This document shows positions 3,346-20,473 of a stretch of DNA of 60,622 bases, piece after piece. Under the pieces are notes generated by a model. It was not told where the DNA came from, did not search any database, and saw only the letters and a list, made by a program, of their open reading frames with translations. Location: positions 1 through 60,622 of the IMG/VR virus record IMGVR_UViG_3300037343_000158; one strand, given 5' to 3'. Within the stretch, counting starts at the first letter, position 1. The number at the start of each line of letters is the position of its first letter. Origin of the DNA: a virus. A program made the position numbers and the translations under genes.

Positions 3346-4068
3346 ATGACAGTCTTTAACTCAGACATGACCGTAGAGCTGGTCAAGCACAGTGCGTCAG
3401 ATACCGATGTAATCTTCGCTGCCAAGGTTTCAACCCAAGGCGAGCGCTCATTTCACGGCAACGAGGGGTTCTCCGAGGACGCGTCAGACAGGCAAGCTGG
3501 TCTAATCAACTGGCTGGTTCGCGACCGTCACGGTTCTCCTTTCGAGCACTCTGTCTTTACTTTTTATGTAAAAGCCCCTATTTTTGTTTGGAGAGAGCAC
3601 ATGCGTCACCGCATGGCTAGCTACAACGAAGAGTCGGGACGATACAAGAAGCTAGAGGCAGAGTTCTACGTTCCAGACGTATCTCGCAACCTTATCCAGA
3701 CTGGCAAGCCAGGAGCTTACGTATTTAGTGCAGGCACCCCTGAGCAGTACGAAGTTGTGTCTAACAGCTTTGTTACTTCCTGCGAAAGTGCTTACGCAGA
3801 ATACACAGGGATGCTGGACGCGGGAGTTGCCCGAGAGGTGGCCAGAGCAGTTCTGCCCACAACCATTTACTCATCGGCATACGTCACCATGAACGCCCGC
3901 GCTCTTATGAACTTTTTGTCACTGCGTCGCAACGTAGAAGGTCAAAGGTTTCCGTCATACCCACAGCGCGAGATTGAGATAGTCGCAGAGAAATACGAAG
4001 CCATCTTCGAGGAGCTCATGCCATTGACCCACAAGTCTTTTGTTGCGAACGGAAGAGTAGCTCCGTAA
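3346..4068 (+). CDS. thyX: Flavin-dependent thymidylate synthase ThyX
   Basis: ThyX makes dTMP from dUMP using FAD, NADPH and methylene-tetrahydrofolate, supplying thymidine for phage DNA synthesis. The 240-residue length is normal. The family signature RHRX7S is intact: R87-H88-R89, with S97 in SYNEESGRY. The AGGA before ATG 3346 is well placed. The TAA stop overlaps the next ATG by one base (TAATG), so translation of the recombinase downstream is probably coupled. ThyX is frequent in phages of bacteria with small or folate-limited thymidylate supply, including actinophages. Confidence 0.95.
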   Translation: MTVFNSDMTVELVKHSASDTDVIFAAKVSTQGERSFHGNEGFSEDASDRQAGLINWLVRDRHGSPFEHSVFTFYVKAPIFVWREHMRHRMASYNEESGRYKKLEAEFYVPDVSRNLIQTGKPGAYVFSAGTPEQYEVVSNSFVTSCESAYAEYTGMLDAGVAREVARAVLPTTIYSSAYVTMNARALMNFLSLRRNVEGQRFPSYPQREIEIVAEKYEAIFEELMPLTHKSFVANGRVAP

Positions 4069-4742
4069 TGACTGAAGGCATTGCTTATTGCTATGCACGA
4101 GTCTCAACTCAAATGCAAGCAACAGACGGTATGAGTCTTGGAGCTCAGGAGAAGCAGCTAATCGCTGCCGCTGAGTTGGCTGGCTATACGCCTGTAATTC
4201 TTAGAGAAGAGGGGCGCTCAGGGAAGAGTATTCAAGGTAGACCAGTGCTGAAGAAGGCACTGGAAGAACTTGACTCTGGGCTTGCTCAGGCTATGTATGT
4301 CACAAGGTTGGACCGACTAGCTCGCTCCACTCGAGACTTTCTCAGCATTGTTGACCGTTCTCATAAGTATGAATGGCGATTAGCCCTGCTTGACCTTGGG
4401 CTAGACACTGCCACATACCAAGGAAGATTCGTCGTCACAATAATGTCAGCCATGGCTGAGATGGAAAGAGGAATGATTTCTCTACGCCAGAAGGATGTCC
4501 ATCAAGACCGACGTGATAACGGCAAAGTCTGGGGAGTTGACATTGGCCCTAAGTCAGTACTGGACATAGACCTAAAGCAAAGAATTTGGAATGAAAGAAA
4601 CGCTGGTCTTTCTTTTAACGTTATAGCTCAGAAGCTGAACAAAGAGGGAGTCCCAACAACTAACAAAGGTAAAGAGTGGTACGCAAGTACTGTTCGATAC
4701 GTCTTTGTGGCATTCTCTAAAGAAGTCACTGATGTTGTCTAG
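4068..4742 (+). CDS. Small serine recombinase / resolvase
   Basis: The 224-residue product has the resolvase/invertase catalytic domain: YARVST with the nucleophile Ser13, the RLDRLARS segment with conserved arginines, and a MSAMAEMERGMISLRQK helix joining to a short C-terminal region. That region (NERNAGLSFNVIAQKLNKEG...TTNKGKEWYASTVRYVF) resembles the start of the 'recombinase' DNA-binding domain. Such enzymes cut and rejoin DNA at short paired sites. The size suits an invertase, resolvase or small integrase rather than a large phiC31-type integrase. No attachment site or invertible segment was found nearby. Translation is coupled to thyX. Confidence 0.9.
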   Translation: MTEGIAYCYARVSTQMQATDGMSLGAQEKQLIAAAELAGYTPVILREEGRSGKSIQGRPVLKKALEELDSGLAQAMYVTRLDRLARSTRDFLSIVDRSHKYEWRLALLDLGLDTATYQGRFVVTIMSAMAEMERGMISLRQKDVHQDRRDNGKVWGVDIGPKSVLDIDLKQRIWNERNAGLSFNVIAQKLNKEGVPTTNKGKEWYASTVRYVFVAFSKEVTDVV

Positions 4743-5513: not shown

Positions 5514-8234
5514 ATGGGCAAAAGTTTGATGGAGCTTATTGCGCTTTTGCCCATAGAGGAGCAACAGGCTGTCCTTGCTGATATGGACATGGACCAGCTC
5601 ATGTGGGACTGGAACGTTTGGGCTCGCCCTGAGCAGTTAGCACCCGAAGGTGACGACTGGAACGTATGGCTAATTATGGCTGGGCGTGGATTTGGGAAAT
5701 TTTTGGAGATGTCCACTCCAATACTCTATACAGATGGTACGTCTACATACTTCAAAACTATCGGGGACATTCAAACGGGCGACACCATTTTTGATGAGAA
5801 TGGTAAGCCCACTAAAGTACTGCAAGCTCACGTCCCTGATATACCCAAGAGGATGTTTCGTTTGACTTTTTCAGACGGCACTACCTTGGACGCAGGTGAA
5901 GAGCACCAATGGGTAACATGGACCCACTCGGACAGGAAAGCCTATAACCGAAATGTCGGCGGGGCCAAAGGCCTTCCCGATAACTGGCCTCAATGGAAGT
6001 CCACGATTTCTCGCCTGAGATTAGGGTCTCGCATTCCCGTGTCTACTATTGACCGCGCTTTTGAACTTGTGGGCGCTGGGATGTCGGTTAGGAAAGCTGC
6101 AACCAAGCTTGGAGTTTGTAGACAGGCCCTCGCCCCTCACATGCAAGCTGGCAGAAATCTTCACTCGACCATAAATTACGTTAGGCAAGAAACAGGCGTA
6201 GGGCCAAAAATACGCAACACTCAGGAAATTGTAGATTCTTTTACCTACAACGACAGAGGCGACTTCAACCACTCAATTCCCGTAACAGGGGATGTTTCAA
6301 CGCCAATTGCTGATTTACTTATTGACCCGTATTTACTTGGGGTATTTCTTGGAGACGGGACTACTGCATCTAGTGGCTTTACTCAGCACCGTGATGATAT
6401 GGGTCACCTCGTAGATGCAATTTCGGCTGCAGGATACACCCCAACAGAGCCAAAGTATAGAAAACTAATGCACCCTAATACAGGTTCTGTAACTGCTAGG
6501 GGTCTTATCTCTGACTTACGAAAAATAGGAGTACCAGGAACCAAGCACATCCCTGCTGAATATTTATATGCCTCAGCCGACCAACGCTGGGAGCTCTTAG
6601 CTGGCCTACTAGACTCTGACGGATTTATTGACGCTAAATCGGGATATATAGAATTTTCAAATACTAATAAGAATCTTGCCGACGGCGTCATGTTCCTTGC
6701 TCGCTCGCTTGGGCAGAAGCCCACTATGGCGGAAAAAAAGACTCACGCGACTGCTAAAGACGGTACGCGTACTCCTGGTAAACTTGCTTATCGCATTATG
6801 TGGAGACCAACCCGTAACTTTTTCAAGCTTCCTAGAAAAACTGAGCGGTTTATCCCTCTTGGGAATCAGGCGTCTAGAAATTTTCATCGCATGATTGTTT
6901 CTTTCGAGGAAATAGCTCCCGTACTAAGCCGATGCCTCACCGTTGACTCACCTAACTCCATGTACCTTGCTGGCGAAGCTCTCATCCCAACGCACAACAC
7001 GCGCCTTGGTGCCGAATGGGTCCGCGAGCAGGCAAAATACACAACCACAGGGCAAAGAAGATTCGGGCTAGTAGCTCGTACCGCGGCTGACGTTCGAGAC
7101 GTTTTGGTCGAAGGAGAAAGTGGTATAATAAACATTTCTCCTCCTTCAGAGAAGCCACACTACGAACCTTCTAAGCGAAGACTCACTTGGCCAAACGGTA
7201 ACGTTGCCAGTCTCTTCACTGCAGACGAACCTGATGGTTTGCGTGGACCACAATTTACGCATAGTTGGAGCGACGAAGTGGCGGCCTGGAGACAGACCCC
7301 AGACGCTGCTGGCATGACTGCTTTTGACAATATACGAGTTGGTACTCGTCTTGGAGCCAACCCTCAGATGGTTGTGACCACAACACCAAAAAGAGTGCCG
7401 CTACTTTATAAACTTATTGAAGAATCCAAACTTATAAAGACCTCAGGTTCAAAAGTTATTATCACCAAGGGTTCTACTCTGGATAACGCTGGAAACTTGT
7501 CGGGCGCATACCTAGACACAATTACTGGGGTATACGAAGGAACATCTCTCGCGCAGCAAGAACTTTACGGCGAAATGCTTGATGACGTGGACGGCGCTCT
7601 TTGGACAATCGAAATGATTGATAAGGCAAGAGAGCTTATCTACCCGCCTAGCACCCCCCTGAGAGTTATAGGTGTTGACCCGTCGGTAGCAGAAAACCCA
7701 AGGGACGCTTGCGGTATCGTCGTCTGCGCATCCACTGGAGACAGAGACTTGTACAAGCGCCACGCTTGGGTTCTGGAAGACGCTACCATTCACGGCTCCC
7801 CAGAAGTCTGGGCTAATAAAGTCGTTGAGATGGCTCGTCGCTGGGGCGCACCAGTTGTCGCAGAAGTAAACCAAGGTGGTGCTTTGGTTCGTAACGCAAT
7901 CAACGCTATTGACCCTAGCGTAAAGGTTTTAGAGGTCCACTCAAAATACGGTAAAGCTTTGAGAGCCGAGCCAATTGTTTTGGCCTACGAGCAATCTAGA
8001 ATTCACCACGTAAATTATCTACCCGAGCTAGAGTCTCAGATGACTTCTTGGATTCCAGAGCAGACTCGAAGCTCACCAGACCGAGTAGATGCTTTGGTTC
8101 ACGCCATGACAGCTTTGCTAATTAAGCCACCTGCAGGATTCCATGGAGGAAAGCTAACTGCTAAATCTCCTGCTGCAAGAAAGCTTCCGCCGTTCCGTTC
8201 TGGCGGAGGTAAGGTTTTTAACCCTAACCGTTAG
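5514..8234 (+). CDS. Terminase large subunit, intein-containing precursor
   Basis: The terminase ATPase/nuclease that packs DNA into the head, interrupted by an intein. Removing residues 63-495 leaves a 473-residue extein with a restored Walker A (GRGFGK joined to TRLG), Walker B (SWSDE, D587-E588) and a TTTPKR coupling motif. The RNase H-like nuclease has acidic residues D722 (GVDPSV), E784 (VVAEVNQGG) and D859 (RVDALVHAM). AGGTGA precedes ATG 5514. The 3' end overlaps the convergent primase gene by four bases. Unusually for a siphovirus it is separated from the tail genes, which sit on the opposite strand about 40 kb away. Confidence 0.95.
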   Translation: MGKSLMELIALLPIEEQQAVLADMDMDQLMWDWNVWARPEQLAPEGDDWNVWLIMAGRGFGKFLEMSTPILYTDGTSTYFKTIGDIQTGDTIFDENGKPTKVLQAHVPDIPKRMFRLTFSDGTTLDAGEEHQWVTWTHSDRKAYNRNVGGAKGLPDNWPQWKSTISRLRLGSRIPVSTIDRAFELVGAGMSVRKAATKLGVCRQALAPHMQAGRNLHSTINYVRQETGVGPKIRNTQEIVDSFTYNDRGDFNHSIPVTGDVSTPIADLLIDPYLLGVFLGDGTTASSGFTQHRDDMGHLVDAISAAGYTPTEPKYRKLMHPNTGSVTARGLISDLRKIGVPGTKHIPAEYLYASADQRWELLAGLLDSDGFIDAKSGYIEFSNTNKNLADGVMFLARSLGQKPTMAEKKTHATAKDGTRTPGKLAYRIMWRPTRNFFKLPRKTERFIPLGNQASRNFHRMIVSFEEIAPVLSRCLTVDSPNSMYLAGEALIPTHNTRLGAEWVREQAKYTTTGQRRFGLVARTAADVRDVLVEGESGIINISPPSEKPHYEPSKRRLTWPNGNVASLFTADEPDGLRGPQFTHSWSDEVAAWRQTPDAAGMTAFDNIRVGTRLGANPQMVVTTTPKRVPLLYKLIEESKLIKTSGSKVIITKGSTLDNAGNLSGAYLDTITGVYEGTSLAQQELYGEMLDDVDGALWTIEMIDKARELIYPPSTPLRVIGVDPSVAENPRDACGIVVCASTGDRDLYKRHAWVLEDATIHGSPEVWANKVVEMARRWGAPVVAEVNQGGALVRNAINAIDPSVKVLEVHSKYGKALRAEPIVLAYEQSRIHHVNYLPELESQMTSWIPEQTRSSPDRVDALVHAMTALLIKPPAGFHGGKLTAKSPAARKLPPFRSGGGKVFNPNR
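5700..6998 (+). other. Class 3-like intein with LAGLIDADG homing endonuclease
   Basis: The 433-residue insert begins at F63 and ends at T493-H494-N495, with Thr as the first residue of the C-extein. There is no Cys, Ser or Ala at its first position, so normal class 1 chemistry is not available. Instead it has Trp two residues after the block B His (H131-Q-W133), Cys in block F (SRCLTV, C474) and Thr before the terminal His-Asn. This W-C-T trio defines class 3 inteins, which start splicing at the block F Cys. Two LAGLIDADG motifs (LLGVFLGDG, about 274-282; LLAGLLDSDG, 361-370) make the endonuclease look intact. Confidence 0.9.
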
Positions 8235-10855
8235 AACCTAGCTATCGAAGTCATTGTCTGCCAGTTCATATCTGTAGGCGTCATCCTTGAAATAACCTTG
8301 AGACCCTTGACAGTTGCGCGAGAACCAGTACCGTCAATCTCCATGCCACGCTCAAGAAGCTTTCTAGTGAATGCAATCTGAGTCATCGAGCGCTCGCCAC
8401 GGTCCTCGGACCAAACACGGTAGACGCTAAACATAGTCTTGATTGTTGTCTGAATCCCTACGGCTTCTTCAGTCTCTTCGGCAAGGAAGATTCCAATACG
8501 GTCTTCGTTCTTGCGATAGACATCAGCTGCTTCTCGAACTCGTACGCACCAACCAAGAGCGTCAGGGTCATTGGAGTTTAGAATCTGCATTGCACCTTCG
8601 ACAGCCCAAGCAAGAACAGCGGGTAGTCCGCCTTCTGGGTCAAAGATGTAGTCCTTAAGGTTTGGGTCTGGGTGAAGAGGCACCTTGTCAAACGGGATAG
8701 GTCTGATACGACGCCACATGGCATCATCCGTAATGATAGGACGGTGGTTTGTAGAAATCCATAGCTTCGCCTGAGACTGGAACGTGAAAGGCTGCTCTCC
8801 AGGAGAACGGGCTGAGATTTCAGAAGAGCCCGTCAACTTCTTTACAGAGTTCTCTTTAATACGCTCGGAGTCGGGAAGCTCATCTACCCAGACCATTCGG
8901 CGTCCACGCAACTGAGCCCAGTGGTAGAGGTCAGTGCTGTTTGACTTTCCGTCGCCCTGAGCCAGAATTGTGGAGTCCAGAGGCCAAGCGTATTGCTGAG
9001 TACCTAGGCACTTAACCAAAGCCTCAACGAAAGTATTTTTACCCGAACCACCAGGTCCATAAACTAGAAAAAGAATGTCGTACTTACTGGAGCCAGTGAG
9101 TGTGTACCCAGCGGCTCTTTGTAGCCAGTCTTGGTATTCTTTGTCTCCACCAGTTGTCTCGTCTAGGAACTTTTCCCAGCGGGCGTTTCGGTGACCACGA
9201 GTGTAAGTAACTGGAGCACGGCGAGTGATGTGCAGGTCTGGACGACCCTTCAAAAGCTCACCTGATTTTAGGTCAATCACACCGTTGAGAACACCCAACA
9301 AGTTTGAGTCATTGTCCCACGTGTCAACTGCTACTTCAACCCTAGGGTCAGACTTAGCACTATCCACTGCTCCACGCAACCGAGAGTTGCTACGAGATTG
9401 ATGCGCCCACTTGAGAACTTCACCCTGCTTATCTGGGTCATGGTTCTCGGTCTCAGAGCCAATAAAGGCGCCGAGTCGCTTAGCAAGTTCTTGAATTTCT
9501 AGGTCTTCGGTATCAGGCTTCCAATAGCCCTCTTTCCAAACAAACCAACCAAGGCCAGTACTGTATCGAGCACCCTTACCAAAAATGTCTACAAGGCGAC
9601 GTCCGTTGCCAGTGTCTGACAAAGAACGTCTACCTGGAGTTCCTCCGTCTTGAACTGCTATGGCGTCTGGGTCTTTAGGCACGTCCATGTTTGTAATGCT
9701 GGTGGCTTCATTAATAGAAGCCCCCTGCTCAATTAGCTCATCTACACCGTGCTCGTACGGACGGTAGATGTTTTCGTTTAGGCCGTCCATTGAATAAGTC
9801 TCGGGAGCCACGACGCCAAGAAGAGGAACTAGCTTTGCTGGGGATTTAGCCGCTCCATTGGATGCGCTAATTTTTACGGCACGGTCTTTTTGCCATTCGC
9901 TGTGCTGAGGGTCATATCTTTGTTCTTTAGGATTATCCGCAACAAACTGTATCCCACGACGAACGTGCATAATCAAAGAGTTTGTGCCCTCTAGCTCCAT
10001 AGGAGGTCGGACGTTATCGTGATTGAACCTAATCATAAACGTTTCAATGAAGTTAGCGGTTACAGGCTCTGTCCCATACTTATTAGCTAAGTGGCAGGAA
10101 AGCTTATAAATCTGTACAGCTCGCTCTCCTTCGTCAATTCCCTCGTTAATAAGTTTGTCGTAGTCAAAATCTTCTACGTCATTTACCCAGTCCCAGTCGC
10201 CTCCACCAGCAAAGTTGTATGAGGTGCGACGACGCTGTTTACGGAGAATACTTAGGAGCTCCTCGGGAGCCTCTGCCATATCAATTTCCCAAGGCGCACA
10301 GCCCTCGGCCCATTCATAAGTAACACCAGAGTGGTGCCTCGAAGGAGAAATAAGGACATAGCCATTGTGCTTAATGTCAACACCTTTTAGCTCAAGAGAG
10401 TTGAGGTTTCCGATTAAGTCTTCTTCTGGGTCACACTTGTAGTAAATGTGGCGTCCACGGCCACTAGTTCTGTCATCGCCGTTGTAGATACCAGTGATGG
10501 CCTCAACGGTTGGGGGTAGCTCGCCTTCGAGCTTTTCTAAAAATTTTACATAGGATTCTGGACCGCCAGAGCGTGGGTCAATGTCGATGACTAAAAAGCC
10601 AGACTTAGAACAATGTACGCCGATGTTGTACTCAGGGTTGGCGCTCCACCACTTGTTAATCTTGTCAATGTCTGAAGTTGATTCAACATTCCACTGACCT
10701 ATTACAGGGTGCTTTCCAACTTCCTTGGGCTCACCGTGGGTCTTATTGCAAGTGCATCGACCGTTATCAATTCCATGGCATGGAAGAATTTTCCAATTCA
10801 AATTTGGGTAATATGTCGACGCCTTTGCGAGACGACTCTTGTCTTTGTTATCCAC
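8231..10855 (-). CDS. Primase-polymerase / SF3 helicase fusion
   Basis: An 874-residue replication protein. The N-terminal half is a bifunctional primase-polymerase: GKHP near 48-50, catalytic DID at 91-93 (FLVIDIDPRSGG) and the GRGRHIYYK histidine near 136. The C-terminal half is a P4/D5-type SF3 helicase with Walker A GPGGSGKNT near 600, WVDELPD and WISTNHRP, plus an arginine-finger region WRRIRPIPF near 720. It would unwind DNA and lay down primers. It starts at GTG 10855 behind a strong GAGGAGG site and a well-formed promoter at 10943-10971. It is on the strand opposite its neighbours. Confidence 0.95.
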   Translation of the reverse strand: MDNKDKSRLAKASTYYPNLNWKILPCHGIDNGRCTCNKTHGEPKEVGKHPVIGQWNVESTSDIDKINKWWSANPEYNIGVHCSKSGFLVIDIDPRSGGPESYVKFLEKLEGELPPTVEAITGIYNGDDRTSGRGRHIYYKCDPEEDLIGNLNSLELKGVDIKHNGYVLISPSRHHSGVTYEWAEGCAPWEIDMAEAPEELLSILRKQRRRTSYNFAGGGDWDWVNDVEDFDYDKLINEGIDEGERAVQIYKLSCHLANKYGTEPVTANFIETFMIRFNHDNVRPPMELEGTNSLIMHVRRGIQFVADNPKEQRYDPQHSEWQKDRAVKISASNGAAKSPAKLVPLLGVVAPETYSMDGLNENIYRPYEHGVDELIEQGASINEATSITNMDVPKDPDAIAVQDGGTPGRRSLSDTGNGRRLVDIFGKGARYSTGLGWFVWKEGYWKPDTEDLEIQELAKRLGAFIGSETENHDPDKQGEVLKWAHQSRSNSRLRGAVDSAKSDPRVEVAVDTWDNDSNLLGVLNGVIDLKSGELLKGRPDLHITRRAPVTYTRGHRNARWEKFLDETTGGDKEYQDWLQRAAGYTLTGSSKYDILFLVYGPGGSGKNTFVEALVKCLGTQQYAWPLDSTILAQGDGKSNSTDLYHWAQLRGRRMVWVDELPDSERIKENSVKKLTGSSEISARSPGEQPFTFQSQAKLWISTNHRPIITDDAMWRRIRPIPFDKVPLHPDPNLKDYIFDPEGGLPAVLAWAVEGAMQILNSNDPDALGWCVRVREAADVYRKNEDRIGIFLAEETEEAVGIQTTIKTMFSVYRVWSEDRGERSMTQIAFTRKLLERGMEIDGTGSRATVKGLKVISRMTPTDMNWQTMTSIARF

Positions 10856-13214: not shown

Positions 13215-16200
13215 ATGAATTTTTCACCTGACGTTAACACTAGAAATGTCGTTGGTAAGTACCTCAAAGGTACTGGCCTGCCCGCTTCTGGTACCGTAGT
13301 ATTCACGGCTTCTAGCCGAATCGAGGATGTCGACGACGCGACAATCGTTGCCAACCCAATTGTTTTAACTATTGACTCTAACGGAGAGTTCACCGTTGAG
13401 CTCCCATGTACTGACGACCTTGACCTGAGCCCACGTGGCTGGTACTGGACTGCAAAGATTCGCATCAAGGGTTCACGTCCAAAAGAATTCCGCTTCTACC
13501 TCCCTATTGGAGATGAGAGCGATGTAGATATCACCAAGCTTGACACAGTAGATACAGTAACAACTTCCCCCGCAGGTTCAGACGTTGCTAGAGGCTCTGT
13601 AGGCCCACAGGGAGCAACAGGACCTACTGGCGCTGGCGAGCAAGGCCCGCAAGGCCCTACAGGACCTTCAGGCGGTCCTACAGGTGCAACGGGTGCACAA
13701 GGTAACATCGGTAACATTGGGCCAACTGGTGCAGCTGGAACCTCAGTCACCATTGTTGGTTCTCTGGCATCCACAGGTGACCTACCTACAACAGGCGACA
13801 TCGGAGATGGCTACCTTATAAATGGTGACCTTTTTGTGTGGGACAACGTCAACTCCGAGTGGGACAACGTTGGAACAATCCAAGGTCCAGTTGGCGGAAC
13901 TGGTGCAACAGGCGCGGCAGGAACAACTGGAGATGCAGGACCTGCAGGCGCTACAGGACCCACAGGTATTCAGGGTGCAACTGGTGCTATCGGTGCCACG
14001 GGCGCAACTGGTCCAACCTCCACAGTTCAAGGCCCCATCGGTGTCACAGGCCCAACTGGGCCGATAGGTCTTCAGGGTAATTTAGGTAATACTGGTCCCG
14101 CTGGCGTAGCAGGCCCAACAGGCACTGCAGGCCCAACTGGGTCAATCGGCTCAACTGGAGCTACTGGAGTCGCGGGTCCAACAGGTATCCAAGGTGTAAC
14201 AGGAGCAGTTGGCGCAACGGGTGCAACAGGTGCAAGTGGTGTCCAAGGTAATACAGGAACGACTGGCGCTTCAGTTACAGGTGCAACAGGAGCAGTCGGT
14301 GCTACAGGCGCAACAGGTTCAAACGGCCTAGTCGGCTCTACTGGTGCTCAAGGTCCTCAAGGTGTACTTGGCGCGACAGGCGCTGTAGGCGCGACTGGCG
14401 CAACAGGTTCTCAAGGTTTAGTTGGTGCAACAGGTGCTTCAGTTACAGGTGCAACTGGTGCCGCTGGCGCAGTGGGCGCAACTGGAGCTACTGGTTCTCA
14501 AGGCGCTACTGGTGCTCAGGGAGTAGCAGGTCCAACTGGTGCGACAGGTTCGGTGGGTTCAGACTCAACCGTGGCTGGTCCACAGGGTGCAACTGGTGTT
14601 CAAGGTCCGACTGGTGTTGCAGGTGCAACAGGCCCAATTGGTAACTTTGGTGGAGCAAGCTTTGACTACACCTTTAGCACTTCGGTAGCAGACACCGACC
14701 CTGGCACTGGAAAAATTAAATTTAACAACGCTGACCTTCAGAGCGCAACCAATCTTTTTATTGACGATGAGGCTGACGGTGCAATCGATGTTCAGCAATT
14801 CCTCCGCACGATTGACGACTCTACAAGTCCAATCAAGGGACACGTTCGAATCACCAACAAAGTTGACTCCAACGACTTTGCAATCTTTGCTATCACAGGT
14901 GCAATCACTGAGGCCACAGGATACTTTAGAGTTCCTGTTTCTTACCTGAGTGGTCTGGCAACAAGCTTCTCCAATCTAGAAGATATTATTGCCACGTTCG
15001 CAAGAACTGGTGACATTGGTCCTCAGGGTATTCGCGGTGAAACAGGACCTACGGGTGCAACAGGTGCAATCGGTGAAACAGGCCCAGCAGTCACTGGTCC
15101 TACAGGCGCGGCCTCTACCCAAGTTGGCCCCACAGGTTCTACAGGTGCAACAGGTGCAGGAATACAAGGACCAACAGGTGTTGCTGGACCGCTAGGACCT
15201 ACGGGTGCTATTGGTGCTACAGGTGCTACAGGCTCGACTGGACCTCAGAGTAATGTTCTCGGGCCTACAGGCCCAACTGGGCCGATAGGTCTTCAGGGTA
15301 ATTTAGGTAACACAGGCCCAACTGGTGCTACTGGTGCAGTCTCAACAACTCCTGGACCTACAGGTGCAACGGGTAACGACTCCACAGTTCAAGGCCCGCA
15401 GGGCGAGCAGGGTGTCACAGGGCCTACTGGTGCAGACAGCACAGTTGCAGGACCGCAGGGTGTAACTGGACCGACAGGTTCGACAGGTTCTCAAGGTGAG
15501 ATTGGCGTAACAGGTCCCACTGGGCAGACAGGCCCAAGCGGTCCAACAGGTGCGGACAGCACAGTTGAAGGACCGCTAGGACCTACAGGTGCAACTGGTT
15601 CAACGGGTGCTCAGGGTACTGGCGTAACAATCCTTGGGTCATATGCAACCTTAGGAGAGCTCCAAGCATCTGAGCCAACAGGTAATCCTGGAGACGGCTA
15701 CTTAGTAACTGGTGACCTCTACGTTTGGGATGACGTAGACGGCTCTTGGAATAACGTTGGAAGCATTCAAGGACCTATAGGCCCACTTGGTCCTACAGGA
15801 CAAACTGGCCCAACAGGACAGACTGGTTCTCAAGGTGAGCTAGGTGCATTTGCTGTTACAAATGTCACTCCTCCCTCCAGCCCTGATGCTGGCGACGCTT
15901 GGTATAACAGCGAGACTGGTCGCATTTATGTTTACTATGACAACTTCTGGGTTGAGACTTCTGCTGCCCCAATCGGACCGACAGGTGCTACAGGAGACGT
16001 AGGCCCAACAGGAGCTGACTCAACAGTTACTGGTCCTCAAGGTGTCACTGGCCCAACTGGGTATAGAGGAATTACAGGGCCTCAGGGAGAGGTCGGACCG
16101 ACTGGCGCAACTGGAGCTGACTCTGTAGTTGCAGGTCCCCAAGGTATCACTGGTCCAATCGGTGAGACTGGACCTACTGGTGCCGCCTCAACTGTGGTTG

Positions 16201-17867
16201 GGCCGACAGGTTCTCAAGGTGAAGTTGGCCCTACTGGTGCTGACTCAACAGTTGCAGGACCAACGGGTGCCGCAGGAGAATTTGTACCTAAGTCTGATAG
16301 CCCTCCATTATCTCCAGAGCCAGGCGAGCTATGGTTCGACACAAATAACGGAGCAGTCTTTGTTTACTATGACAACTTCTGGGTTGAAGTTGGTACTTCA
16401 GAGTTTGGTGGAGCAACAGGCCCCCAAGGTATTCAAGGCGAGATTGGGCCGCTAGGACCTACAGGCGCAACTGGAGATGAAGGCCCGCTCGGGCCGACTG
16501 GTGTTGCGGGTGCAACTGGTCCTATTGTTACTGGACCCGCTGGACCGCAGGGCGTGGGCTCACAAGCGCAAGGATTTTATAACACCTTCGCTGAGTTCAG
16601 CGCGGCAGCTGGAGCAACCGCTGGTGCAATTGGAGATTTCTACGTTATCTACGAAGAAAACACAATTTATATCTACACAGCTGACAACGGCTGGATTGAA
16701 GCAGGAGCCTTAATTGGTCCCGTAGGTCCTATTGGTCTCACTGGAAACGTTGGAGCAACTGGCGCAACGGGCGCAACGGGGCCTTCGGTTACAGGACCTA
16801 TTGGCCCTCAGGGGACTTCCATAAACGTTGAAGGAAGCGTATCTACAGCTGCTAATCTTCCTCTCACTGGGAACGCCGTTAACGATGCATACATTGTTGA
16901 TGACAACGGTGACCTATATGTTTGGGACGGGCTTAACTGGAACAGCGTTGGCCAGATTGTTGGTCCAACAGGAGCAATCGGAGTAACTGGGCCAACTGGA
17001 CCATCCGTCACAGGTGCTACAGGACCTGCCTCTACCATTCCTGGACCTCAAGGTTCTCAGGGGCCTGCAGGTCCTAAGGGCGGTGTTGTCTATACAATAT
17101 CTTCAAGCGGTGAGGGCGGATTTTACTCTTCTCAGGGGGTCGTAGGAAACAACCCCAACCTTGTCGCGGTGCGCGGTGAAAGACTTTACATAGATACTTC
17201 CGCTGTGTTGTTAACAAACTCCCTAGCGCTGAGGCTGTCTTCTGGAAGCACCTCAACCGTACCTGGAACCCTCAACAACTCCACTGTTTCTGGTAGAAAC
17301 GGAACCAGCACAGACCCAGTTATTATCTACGATGTGCCTTTGGACGCTCCAGTACAAATTATTTATCAAGACGTTACTGACCCAAGCGTTGCTGGTGTTA
17401 TCGATGTTGTTGATAAGATTGGGCCTACTGGCGCAACAGGCGCAGCGGGACCTGCTGGAACTCCTCAAGAAATTCCATACGCTCCCGTTTTCGGTGGAGA
17501 TGACCTAGGAGTTTCTGGTACTCCCGCAACTGGAAACTACGTAAAAAATGGTAAGGCTATTGTCTTTAATGTAGACATCGACTGCACCACAGTGAGCAGC
17601 TTCGGAACTGCTCAATACTCGATTACCCTTCCTGTTCTACCAGAGCCTGCAATGTCCAACTCGTTTGTTGGAGCATTAGACTTAGACGGCACAGGAGCTA
17701 CGTTGTACAACGTAATTGGCTTTGGAGGTCAGGGCTCTGCAATTCTAGACTTGTGGTATCTCGGAGCTAGCGGAGCGCTAACCGCCTTTACAGGCGTAGC
17801 ACCAGACACTTTAACAACGTCAAGTAAGCTATACCTCAGTGGTTCTTACATAGCGGATAGCGAGTAG
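13215..17867 (+). CDS. Giant collagen-like tail fibre protein, 1550 aa
   Basis: The first gene and largest collagen-like protein of the adhesion island. Residues 1-115 form a beta-rich N-terminal domain (GTVVFTASS...[10 protein letters not shown]...[10 protein letters not shown]) like those that anchor actinophage minor tail proteins. Then come long Gly-x-y tracts, mostly [10 protein letters not shown], in several blocks. At least six Trp/Tyr-rich hairpin modules (YVWD...W..VG..GPTG) and a globular insert at about 475-590 interrupt them. A degenerate cupredoxin-like domain lies near 1288-1403 and a beta-rich C-terminal domain follows. Trimeric collagen-like fibres typically bind host surfaces. 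A 44-base exact repeat (14046 and 15267) shows internal duplication. Confidence 0.9.
14046..14089 (+). repeat. 44-bp direct repeat, copy 1
   Basis: An exact 44-base match to 15267-15310 inside the same gene, in the same reading frame (1,221 bases apart). It encodes [16 protein letters not shown]-type collagen sequence. Identity down to codon choice points to recent duplication or gene conversion rather than only protein-level similarity. Confidence 0.9.
15267..15310 (+). repeat. 44-bp direct repeat, copy 2
   Basis: Second copy of the exact repeat at 14046-14089. Recombination between the two would delete or duplicate 407 codons without changing frame. Confidence 0.9.
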
Positions 17868-18589: not shown

Positions 18590-20473
18590 ATGGCAGCGAT
18601 TGACTTTCCAGATGCACCTCAAGTAAACGACACATTTACTGACGGTACGTCTACATGGGCGTGGACAGGCGTTGCTTGGAACTTAGTTATCTCTCCGATT
18701 GTTGGCCCAACTGGTCCTGCAGGCGCTACAGGTTCTGATAGCTCTGTAGCTGGTCCGATTGGCCCAACGGGTGCGTTCACAATAACTTCTGCAACTCCTC
18801 CCGAGAGTGCTGACGAAGGCGATGCTTGGTTTAATTCTGAGACTGGCCAAATTTATATTTATTACGATTCTTACTGGGTCGAGTCCGCCTCAAGTAATGT
18901 TGGGCAAGCTGGACCACAGGGTGCTACTGGACCGACTGGCGTTGAGGGACCTGCCTCAACTATTCCTGGCGCTACTGGACCTTCTGGTCCAACAGGCCCC
19001 CAAGGAAACACGGGTCCTACTGGCTCAAACGGCTTAGACGTTACTGGACCGACAGGCCAAGCTGGCCCCACGGGTGCAGTTGGTCAGACAGGTATTGAAG
19101 GTCCCGAGGGTCCAACTGGCGCAACGGGTGCTCTAGGTTTTACGGGCCCAACGGGTCCAGAGGGTGTAGAAGGACCTATTGGTCCGCAGGGTATTACTGG
19201 ACCAACTGGAATAACAGGGCCACGAGGATTCGTAGGTGCAACTGGTGCACAGGGTCCAACAGGAAACACTGGGCCTTCGGTAACTGGGCCTACTGGTTCG
19301 GTTGGACCTACTGGGCCATCTCAAGGACCCACTGGACCAACGGGCTCTACAGGTGCAACTGGCCCTTTTGGTCCTACAGGTGATGCTGGTCTTCGTGGTG
19401 CTACTGGTGCAACTGGTGCGACAGGCTCAGCTTCGACAATTCCAGGACCAACAGGACCGCAAGGATTTACAGGACCTACTGGTGCCGCTTCTACTGTGCA
19501 AGGACCAATTGGGCCTACAGGGCCAGAAGTTACAGGACCAGCTGGAGTTGCTGGGCCTACTGGCGTAAGTTTCGCTGGGGTAACTTCTTCTAGCAACTTG
19601 ACAATAACAACAGGCGAAGACATTAACTTTATTGTCAACACTGTTGGAGCTTTTGCAGTCGGTACTCGTGCCAGACTTGCCAGCTCGACCTTCCCAACTA
19701 ACTTTATGGAAGGTATCATAATTAACATCTCTGGTACTTCTGTATCTCTAGATGTCGATAAAGCAGCAGGAGTTGGGAACACTTACGCTGGTTGGAAATT
19801 TGTTGTAGGTGCTGGAGAAGCAGGACCCGTCGGGCCAGAAGGCCCTCAGGGGACTGGAATCACTTTCGTAGGCTCTGTGTTTCAAGCCAACCAACTGCCT
19901 GCAAATGGCAATGCCGTAAACGATGGCTACATTGTTGAGTCAACTGGAGATTTGTTTGTTTGGGATGGCTCACAGTGGGTCAACGCTGGGCAGATTGTCG
20001 GACCAACGGGCGCAACTGGCGCAACGGGTGCTGTGTCAACAACTGCTGGACCAATAGGACCCACTGGGGCTACAGGACTACAAGGAGTTACTGGACCAAC
20101 TGGACCACAAGTCACTGGACCTCAGGGTCCGCTAGGGCCAACAGGACCTGCCAACTTCGAGTTAGTCGGGCCTCAGTACTTAAACTCCATAACTTTGCAA
20201 GACTCTGACGCTGCTTCAATTGTGAAGATAAACAGTTCAGTAGTGACCACAGTCACCGTTCCTTTAGACGGCGCTGCGGGCTACACCTTCCCATTAGGAA
20301 CTCAAATAGTTTTGACTCAGCTCGGCCTAGGTCAGGTGGGCATAGTAGGAGCAAGCGGCGTTCAGGTTCTTTCAGAGGGAAACCGAAAGACAACAAAGTC
20401 TAGGTACTCAATAGCTTCGTTGATTAAGCTCAGTTCTAACACTTGGCTACTAAGCGGAAACTTGATATCTTAA
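18590..20473 (+). CDS. Collagen-like fibre protein, 627 aa
   Basis: It has the [16 protein letters not shown] anchor, a first hairpin module ([20 protein letters not shown]), and a long Gly-x-y stalk. A globular insert near residues 325-405 and a second Trp module ([14 protein letters not shown]) follow, then more stalk and a beta-rich C-terminal head of about 100 residues. The C-terminal head ([20 protein letters not shown]...) is typical of phage fibre tips. It lies 10 bases behind the previous fibre gene with a GGGGA site. Same anchor as its neighbours but a different head, which suggests alternative or additional receptor specificity. Confidence 0.85.

Follow-up and report, generated by a model that had tools for sequence, protein, structure and literature searches.

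The window, i.e. the whole stretch of 60,622 bases analysed here, is a virus record in which an open reading frame (ORF) of 906 amino acids (aa) at positions 5514-8234 encodes a terminase large subunit. An in-frame insert of 433 aa (ORF residues 63-495) separates Lys62 from Thr496 in its Walker A motif (GRGFGK|T). In the sequences flanking the insert, Pfam identified Terminase_6N (5.8e-15; 56 bits, curated cut-off 22) and Terminase_6C (1.1e-9; 38.9 bits, cut-off 22.6). The N-extein shows about 48-77% identity to the intein-free terminases L002 and L019-L096, and the C-extein is 75% identical to the terminase of phage DSL-LC01. The same terminase occurs without the insert in another IMG/VR contig, L018, which has 96-98% DNA identity to the window; its N-extein protein is identical to that of the window, its C-extein is 98.3% identical, and its flanks join at GGAAAA|ACGCGC. 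This uninterrupted site fixes both splice junctions independently of any reading of motifs. An earlier note on this DNA had described a 433-residue insert between GRGFGK and TRLG that splits the Walker A motif of the large terminase. Its coordinates proved exact and agree with the empty site, and the split of Walker A holds. The features of the locus are compiled in the table.

Several genes surround the terminase gene. Upstream (3346-4742) lies a gene for a flavin-dependent thymidylate synthase (Thy1) that overlaps one for a serine recombinase, and a Prim-Pol/D5-type primase-helicase gene follows on the opposite strand (8231-10855), the stop codon of which overlaps the terminase stop by 4 bases. 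Two large collagen-repeat proteins of 1550 and 627 aa (13215-17867 and 18590-20473) may serve as tail fibres or in adhesion. No further intein came to light when twenty other ORFs of the window, including most of the large ones, were scanned with Pfam. A DNA-level search of phage genomes with positions 1-25000 gave no near relative, and a terminase scan of bacterial and archaeal genomes yielded no relative and indicated neither host nor prophage.

Table. Coordinates of the terminase exteins, the intein and its parts in the window.
Feature	Positions	Strand	Basis
N-extein, terminase large subunit, 62 aa	5514-5699	+	last residues are Walker A GRGFGK (5682-5699)
Class 3 intein over its full length of 433 aa	5700-6998	+	splice motifs and empty site in L018
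N-terminal HINT part, block A (F1) to block B H69-Q-W71 (5904-5912)	5700-5912	+	phmmer to 6rix/6bs8
Block of 317 bp identical to L016 (mosaic centre)	5904-6220	+	L016 intein otherwise divergent
Accessory insert, predicted helix-turn-helix	5985-6194	+	AlphaFold2 model; weak sub-threshold Pfam HTH matches
LAGLIDADG motif 1, LLGVFLGDG, intein 212-220	6333-6359	+	alignment of 50 inteins
LAGLIDADG motif 2, LLAGLLDSDG, intein 299-308	6594-6623	+	Pfam LAGLIDADG_3/Hom_end
Splicing blocks F and G: C412 (6933-6935), T431-H432-N433 (6990-6998)	6930-6998	+	aligned to 6rix
C-extein: +1 Thr of Walker A, remaining ATPase, nuclease domain	6999-8231	+	Terminase_6N/6C

Class 3 inteins are defined by a Trp at B:12, a Cys at F:4, a Thr at G:5, a Ser or Thr at +1 and the lack of an N-terminal nucleophile (PMC5222942); the defining features are also given in PMC7664689. 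In intein numbering, F63 of the ORF is residue 1, H131, W133 and C474 become H69, W71 and C412, T493-H494-N495 become T431-H432-N433, and T496 is the +1 residue. Position 1, the boundary being set by the empty site in L018, is a Phe and not a Ser, Cys or Thr nucleophile. W71 lies two residues past the block B His (H69-Q-W71), in register with 6rix, and C412 is found at F:4 in the stretch RCLTVDSP, which aligns with RCVEVDNP of 6rix. T431 occupies G:5 and is followed by His-Asn, and T496 supplies the Ser/Thr that class 3 requires at +1. All 50 inteins that were aligned have H69, W71, C412, T431 and N433 without variation, while position 1 of the related inteins is A, R, P, D, G, L, M, Q or F, i.e. 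a non-nucleophile. A phmmer search against solved structures retrieved Mycobacterium class 3 DnaB1 inteins (6rix, from Mycobacterium chimaera, 1.1e-12; 6bs8, 3.3e-10), which the N- and C-terminal splicing parts match as separate stretches with W133 and C474 in register. This match in both splicing halves, together with the uninterrupted gene in L018, confirms at the sequence level that the insert is real and not a chance resemblance. The earlier note had proposed W133, C474 and the Thr as a class 3 set, and all residues and numbers hold in the 50-intein alignment and against 6rix. We looked for a better-aligned block A nucleophile near F63 and for an alignment that places C474 outside block F: none aligns at position 1, and C474 sits in the invariant block F column. 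The assignment of the insert as a class 3 intein is thus supported by every sequence feature of the class.

Two other readings of the insert were considered and rejected. A class 2-like intein, in which the +1 Thr would attack the N-terminal junction directly and C412 would be non-catalytic, would likewise have no nucleophile at position 1, but the W-C-T residues are complete and do not vary among the 50 relatives, and the solved splicing domains nearest to this one belong to class 3 inteins, which makes this mechanism exceedingly improbable. Hardly more probable is that the insert is an intein in decay, or an intein-like domain, which still cleaves but no longer splices and so leaves a dead terminase. 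Cleavage-only relatives do exist among bacterial intein-like domains (PMC7664689), yet here no catalytic residue is lost, the +1 Thr is retained, the frame is open and the flanking terminase sequence is both intact and conserved. Moreover, the whole intein including the endonuclease is under purifying selection, with a dN/dS of about 0.2 in the comparison with L014 (dN 0.043 and dS 0.199 for the intein, 0.051 and 0.252 for the endonuclease part).

Within the class 3 intein, the LAGLIDADG endonuclease with two motifs announced by the earlier note was recovered, as both motifs were found and Pfam (LAGLIDADG_3, 7.7e-8; Hom_end, 1.8e-5), the structural model and Foldseek agree. The AlphaFold2 model, built from the 50-intein alignment (mean pLDDT 92.8), shows a HINT fold with a double-LAGLIDADG endonuclease. 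Foldseek matched it to PI-SceI (8e-19), TliVMA (2e-13) and MchDnaB1 (4e-5), and also to I-DmoI and the class 3 MsmDnaB intein; the closest viral models are those of intein-bearing phage DnaB and terminases. The insert thus has the two LAGLIDADG helices and the predicted fold of a LAGLIDADG homing endonuclease. Endonuclease activity may differ between copies, because L014 has LLGYWEGDG as its motif 1.

The intein also has an accessory domain at about residues 96-165, an insertion relative to most relatives, with helices predicted by AlphaFold2 at intein residues 114-125, 130-137 and 141-150 (6039-6149). L014, L016, L098 and L099 share it, whereas no other aligned relative does; L098 and L099 (44-45% identity) are the only aligned relatives outside the near-identical group that have it. 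For the helix-turn-helix segment all Pfam matches were sub-threshold, and other hits were limited to weak ones in Caulobacter phages (E 0.3 or worse). In TliVMA-type archaeal inteins, helix-turn-helix accessory domains alter DNA cleavage (PMC8966425). The predicted domain probably aids target cutting by the endonuclease.

The terminases of the close relatives contain zero to three inteins, distributed over three insertion sites: site a at Walker A; site b (F|TADEP), which follows residue 135 of the spliced protein and precedes the Walker B site by 13 residues; and site c (F|THSW), which lies at Walker B and follows residue 148 of the spliced protein. L018 has no intein in its terminase, the window and L016 have one each at site a, and L052 has one at site b. 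Two inteins are present in L012, at sites a and c (L012:5058-6104), and all three sites are occupied in L014 (L014:3501-8297), where about 440-470 aa of a 1662-aa open frame are terminase. L013 and L015 have the site-a intein, their contigs stopping inside the terminase gene, and other terminases with 79-84% identity are intein-free at site a. The same residues place the site-c insert in class 3, although its last three are Thr-Ser-Asn. On the other hand, the site-b insert starts with Cys, ends with Gly-Asn and is class 1-like; Pfam did not recognise the L014 copy, and tblastn revealed its resemblance to inserts in terminase and portal genes of Gordonia phages. In the Microbacterium phages Cece and A3Wally (L003, L004), homologous terminases have a shorter class 3-like intein at another site (EGE|ALALDTP...KTHN|SG) with an apparently reduced endonuclease region. 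Near-identical phages that range from an empty gene to three inteins, together with a mosaic intein in an extein of 99-100% identity, represent a natural series in which intein invasion, stacking and part exchange can be tested, and this series sits in an indispensable phage gene.

Part exchange becomes visible when the window is compared with L016. The N-exteins are identical (186/186 bases), the inteins share 58% identity at 5700-5912, where the last nine bases are identical, and after the identical central block identity is 57.5% at 6240-6925. From 6931 the sequences are again identical through the 3' junction, and the C-exteins are 99.0% identical. The central identical block opens with the codon for the catalytic His of block B and contains the accessory domain, and the 3' identical block begins within the codon that precedes the catalytic Cys. 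L015 shows the same mosaic. In L015 and L016 the accessory domain, the H-x-W of block B, the tail from the catalytic Cys to the Asn and the flanking extein are nearly the same at the DNA level as in the window; the remaining splicing domain and the endonuclease differ. The identity extends to synonymous sites, which argues against protein-level constraint as its cause, and recombination between two site-a inteins is the simplest reading of the mosaic. The multi-intein and mosaic alleles are known from metagenome contigs, in which closely similar strains of one sample could be misjoined. An origin as assembly chimeras is nevertheless unlikely for the mosaic in L015/L016 and for the multi-intein copies in L012 and L014: L015 and L016 come from different datasets and have 19 differences in about 2 kb, the site-c intein is common to L012 and L014 (97.5% DNA identity) and the site-b intein to L014 and L052 (98.8%), and every reading frame stays open. 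It is possible, although less likely than not, that the helix-turn-helix domain is an exchangeable cassette. The population would then be a natural record of modular intein rebuilding and of how one essential gene was loaded stepwise with 0, 1, 2 or 3 inteins.

We conclude, with a probability of roughly 93%, that a mobile class 3 intein is inserted between the Lys and Thr codons of Walker A in the large terminase gene of a phage. In the splicing reaction, Cys412 of block F, together with His69, Trp71 and Thr431, would attack the peptide bond before Phe1 to yield a branched thioester, and the +1 Thr, which is the Walker A Thr itself, would then accept the N-extein. Asn433, helped by His432, would cyclise, and the joined exteins would restore GRGFGKTRLG. 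We can soundly infer from the position of the insert that DNA packaging would depend on this splicing. For mobility, the nested double-LAGLIDADG endonuclease would cut intein-free copies of the site, and repair would copy the intein in. Published assays showed splicing for five other terminase inteins and cleavage of intein-free DNA for two (PMC5050341). In L012 the intein and the upstream flank match the window with 99-100% identity, whereas immediately downstream (7000-7300) the flank resembles the intein-free L018 more closely. This pattern marks a recombination join near the insertion site, which fits homing but is no proof of it, as ordinary phage recombination without homing would also be expected to give recombination at the site.

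In mycobacteriophages, the terminase is the most frequent intein host, with about 40% of the inteins (PMC5050341). The TerL inteins of these phages likewise lie within terminase ATPase domains and comprise class 1 and class 3 members (Kelley et al. 2016, PMC5050341); TerL1-a occupies the same K|T site as the window intein and TerL1-e is located at Walker B. In that survey the P-loop inteins were those of Terminase_1 proteins, and the inteins of Terminase_6 proteins were located at the C-motif, whereas the window has a Terminase_6 protein interrupted at Walker A. The window intein further differs from the mycobacteriophage TerL inteins by its helix-turn-helix insert. The terminase intein of Clavibacter phage CMP1 (GQ241246, L008) shares the class 3 residues, a GVGK|T site and a LAGLIDADG-type layout, but it has 355 aa, lacks the helix-turn-helix insert and is about 34% identical; unlike the window protein, the CMP1 terminase does not match the Terminase_6 models. 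In both phages a thymidylate synthase gene lies upstream of the intein-bearing terminase gene. The Mycobacterium DnaB1 mini-inteins (6rix, 6bs8) have the W-C-T residues, the HINT fold and a P-loop insertion (GK|S) in common with the window intein, but they have no endonuclease and reside in DnaB. PI-SceI and TliVMA (1lws, 7qsu) share the HINT fold, the double LAGLIDADG and an accessory DNA-binding region, which in TliVMA is a helix-turn-helix domain (PMC8966425), but they are not class 3, their hosts are V-ATPase subunits and identity is about 15%. The class 3 inteins of L098 and L099 (IMG/VR) are placed at terminase GK|S or GK|T and have the same helix-turn-helix insert, yet their terminases are more distant. 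Class 3 inteins also occur at terminase GK|T or GK|S in the deposited phages CMP1, RcDurkin and SOVA965, and those at GK|T/S P-loops are abundant in IMG/VR. While the class assignment in the earlier note stands, its emphasis on class 3 as a minority gave rarity too much weight, since such inteins are common at phage terminase P-loops. The finding is correct and of a kind already known: one more well-supported class 3 intein at an established hot spot.
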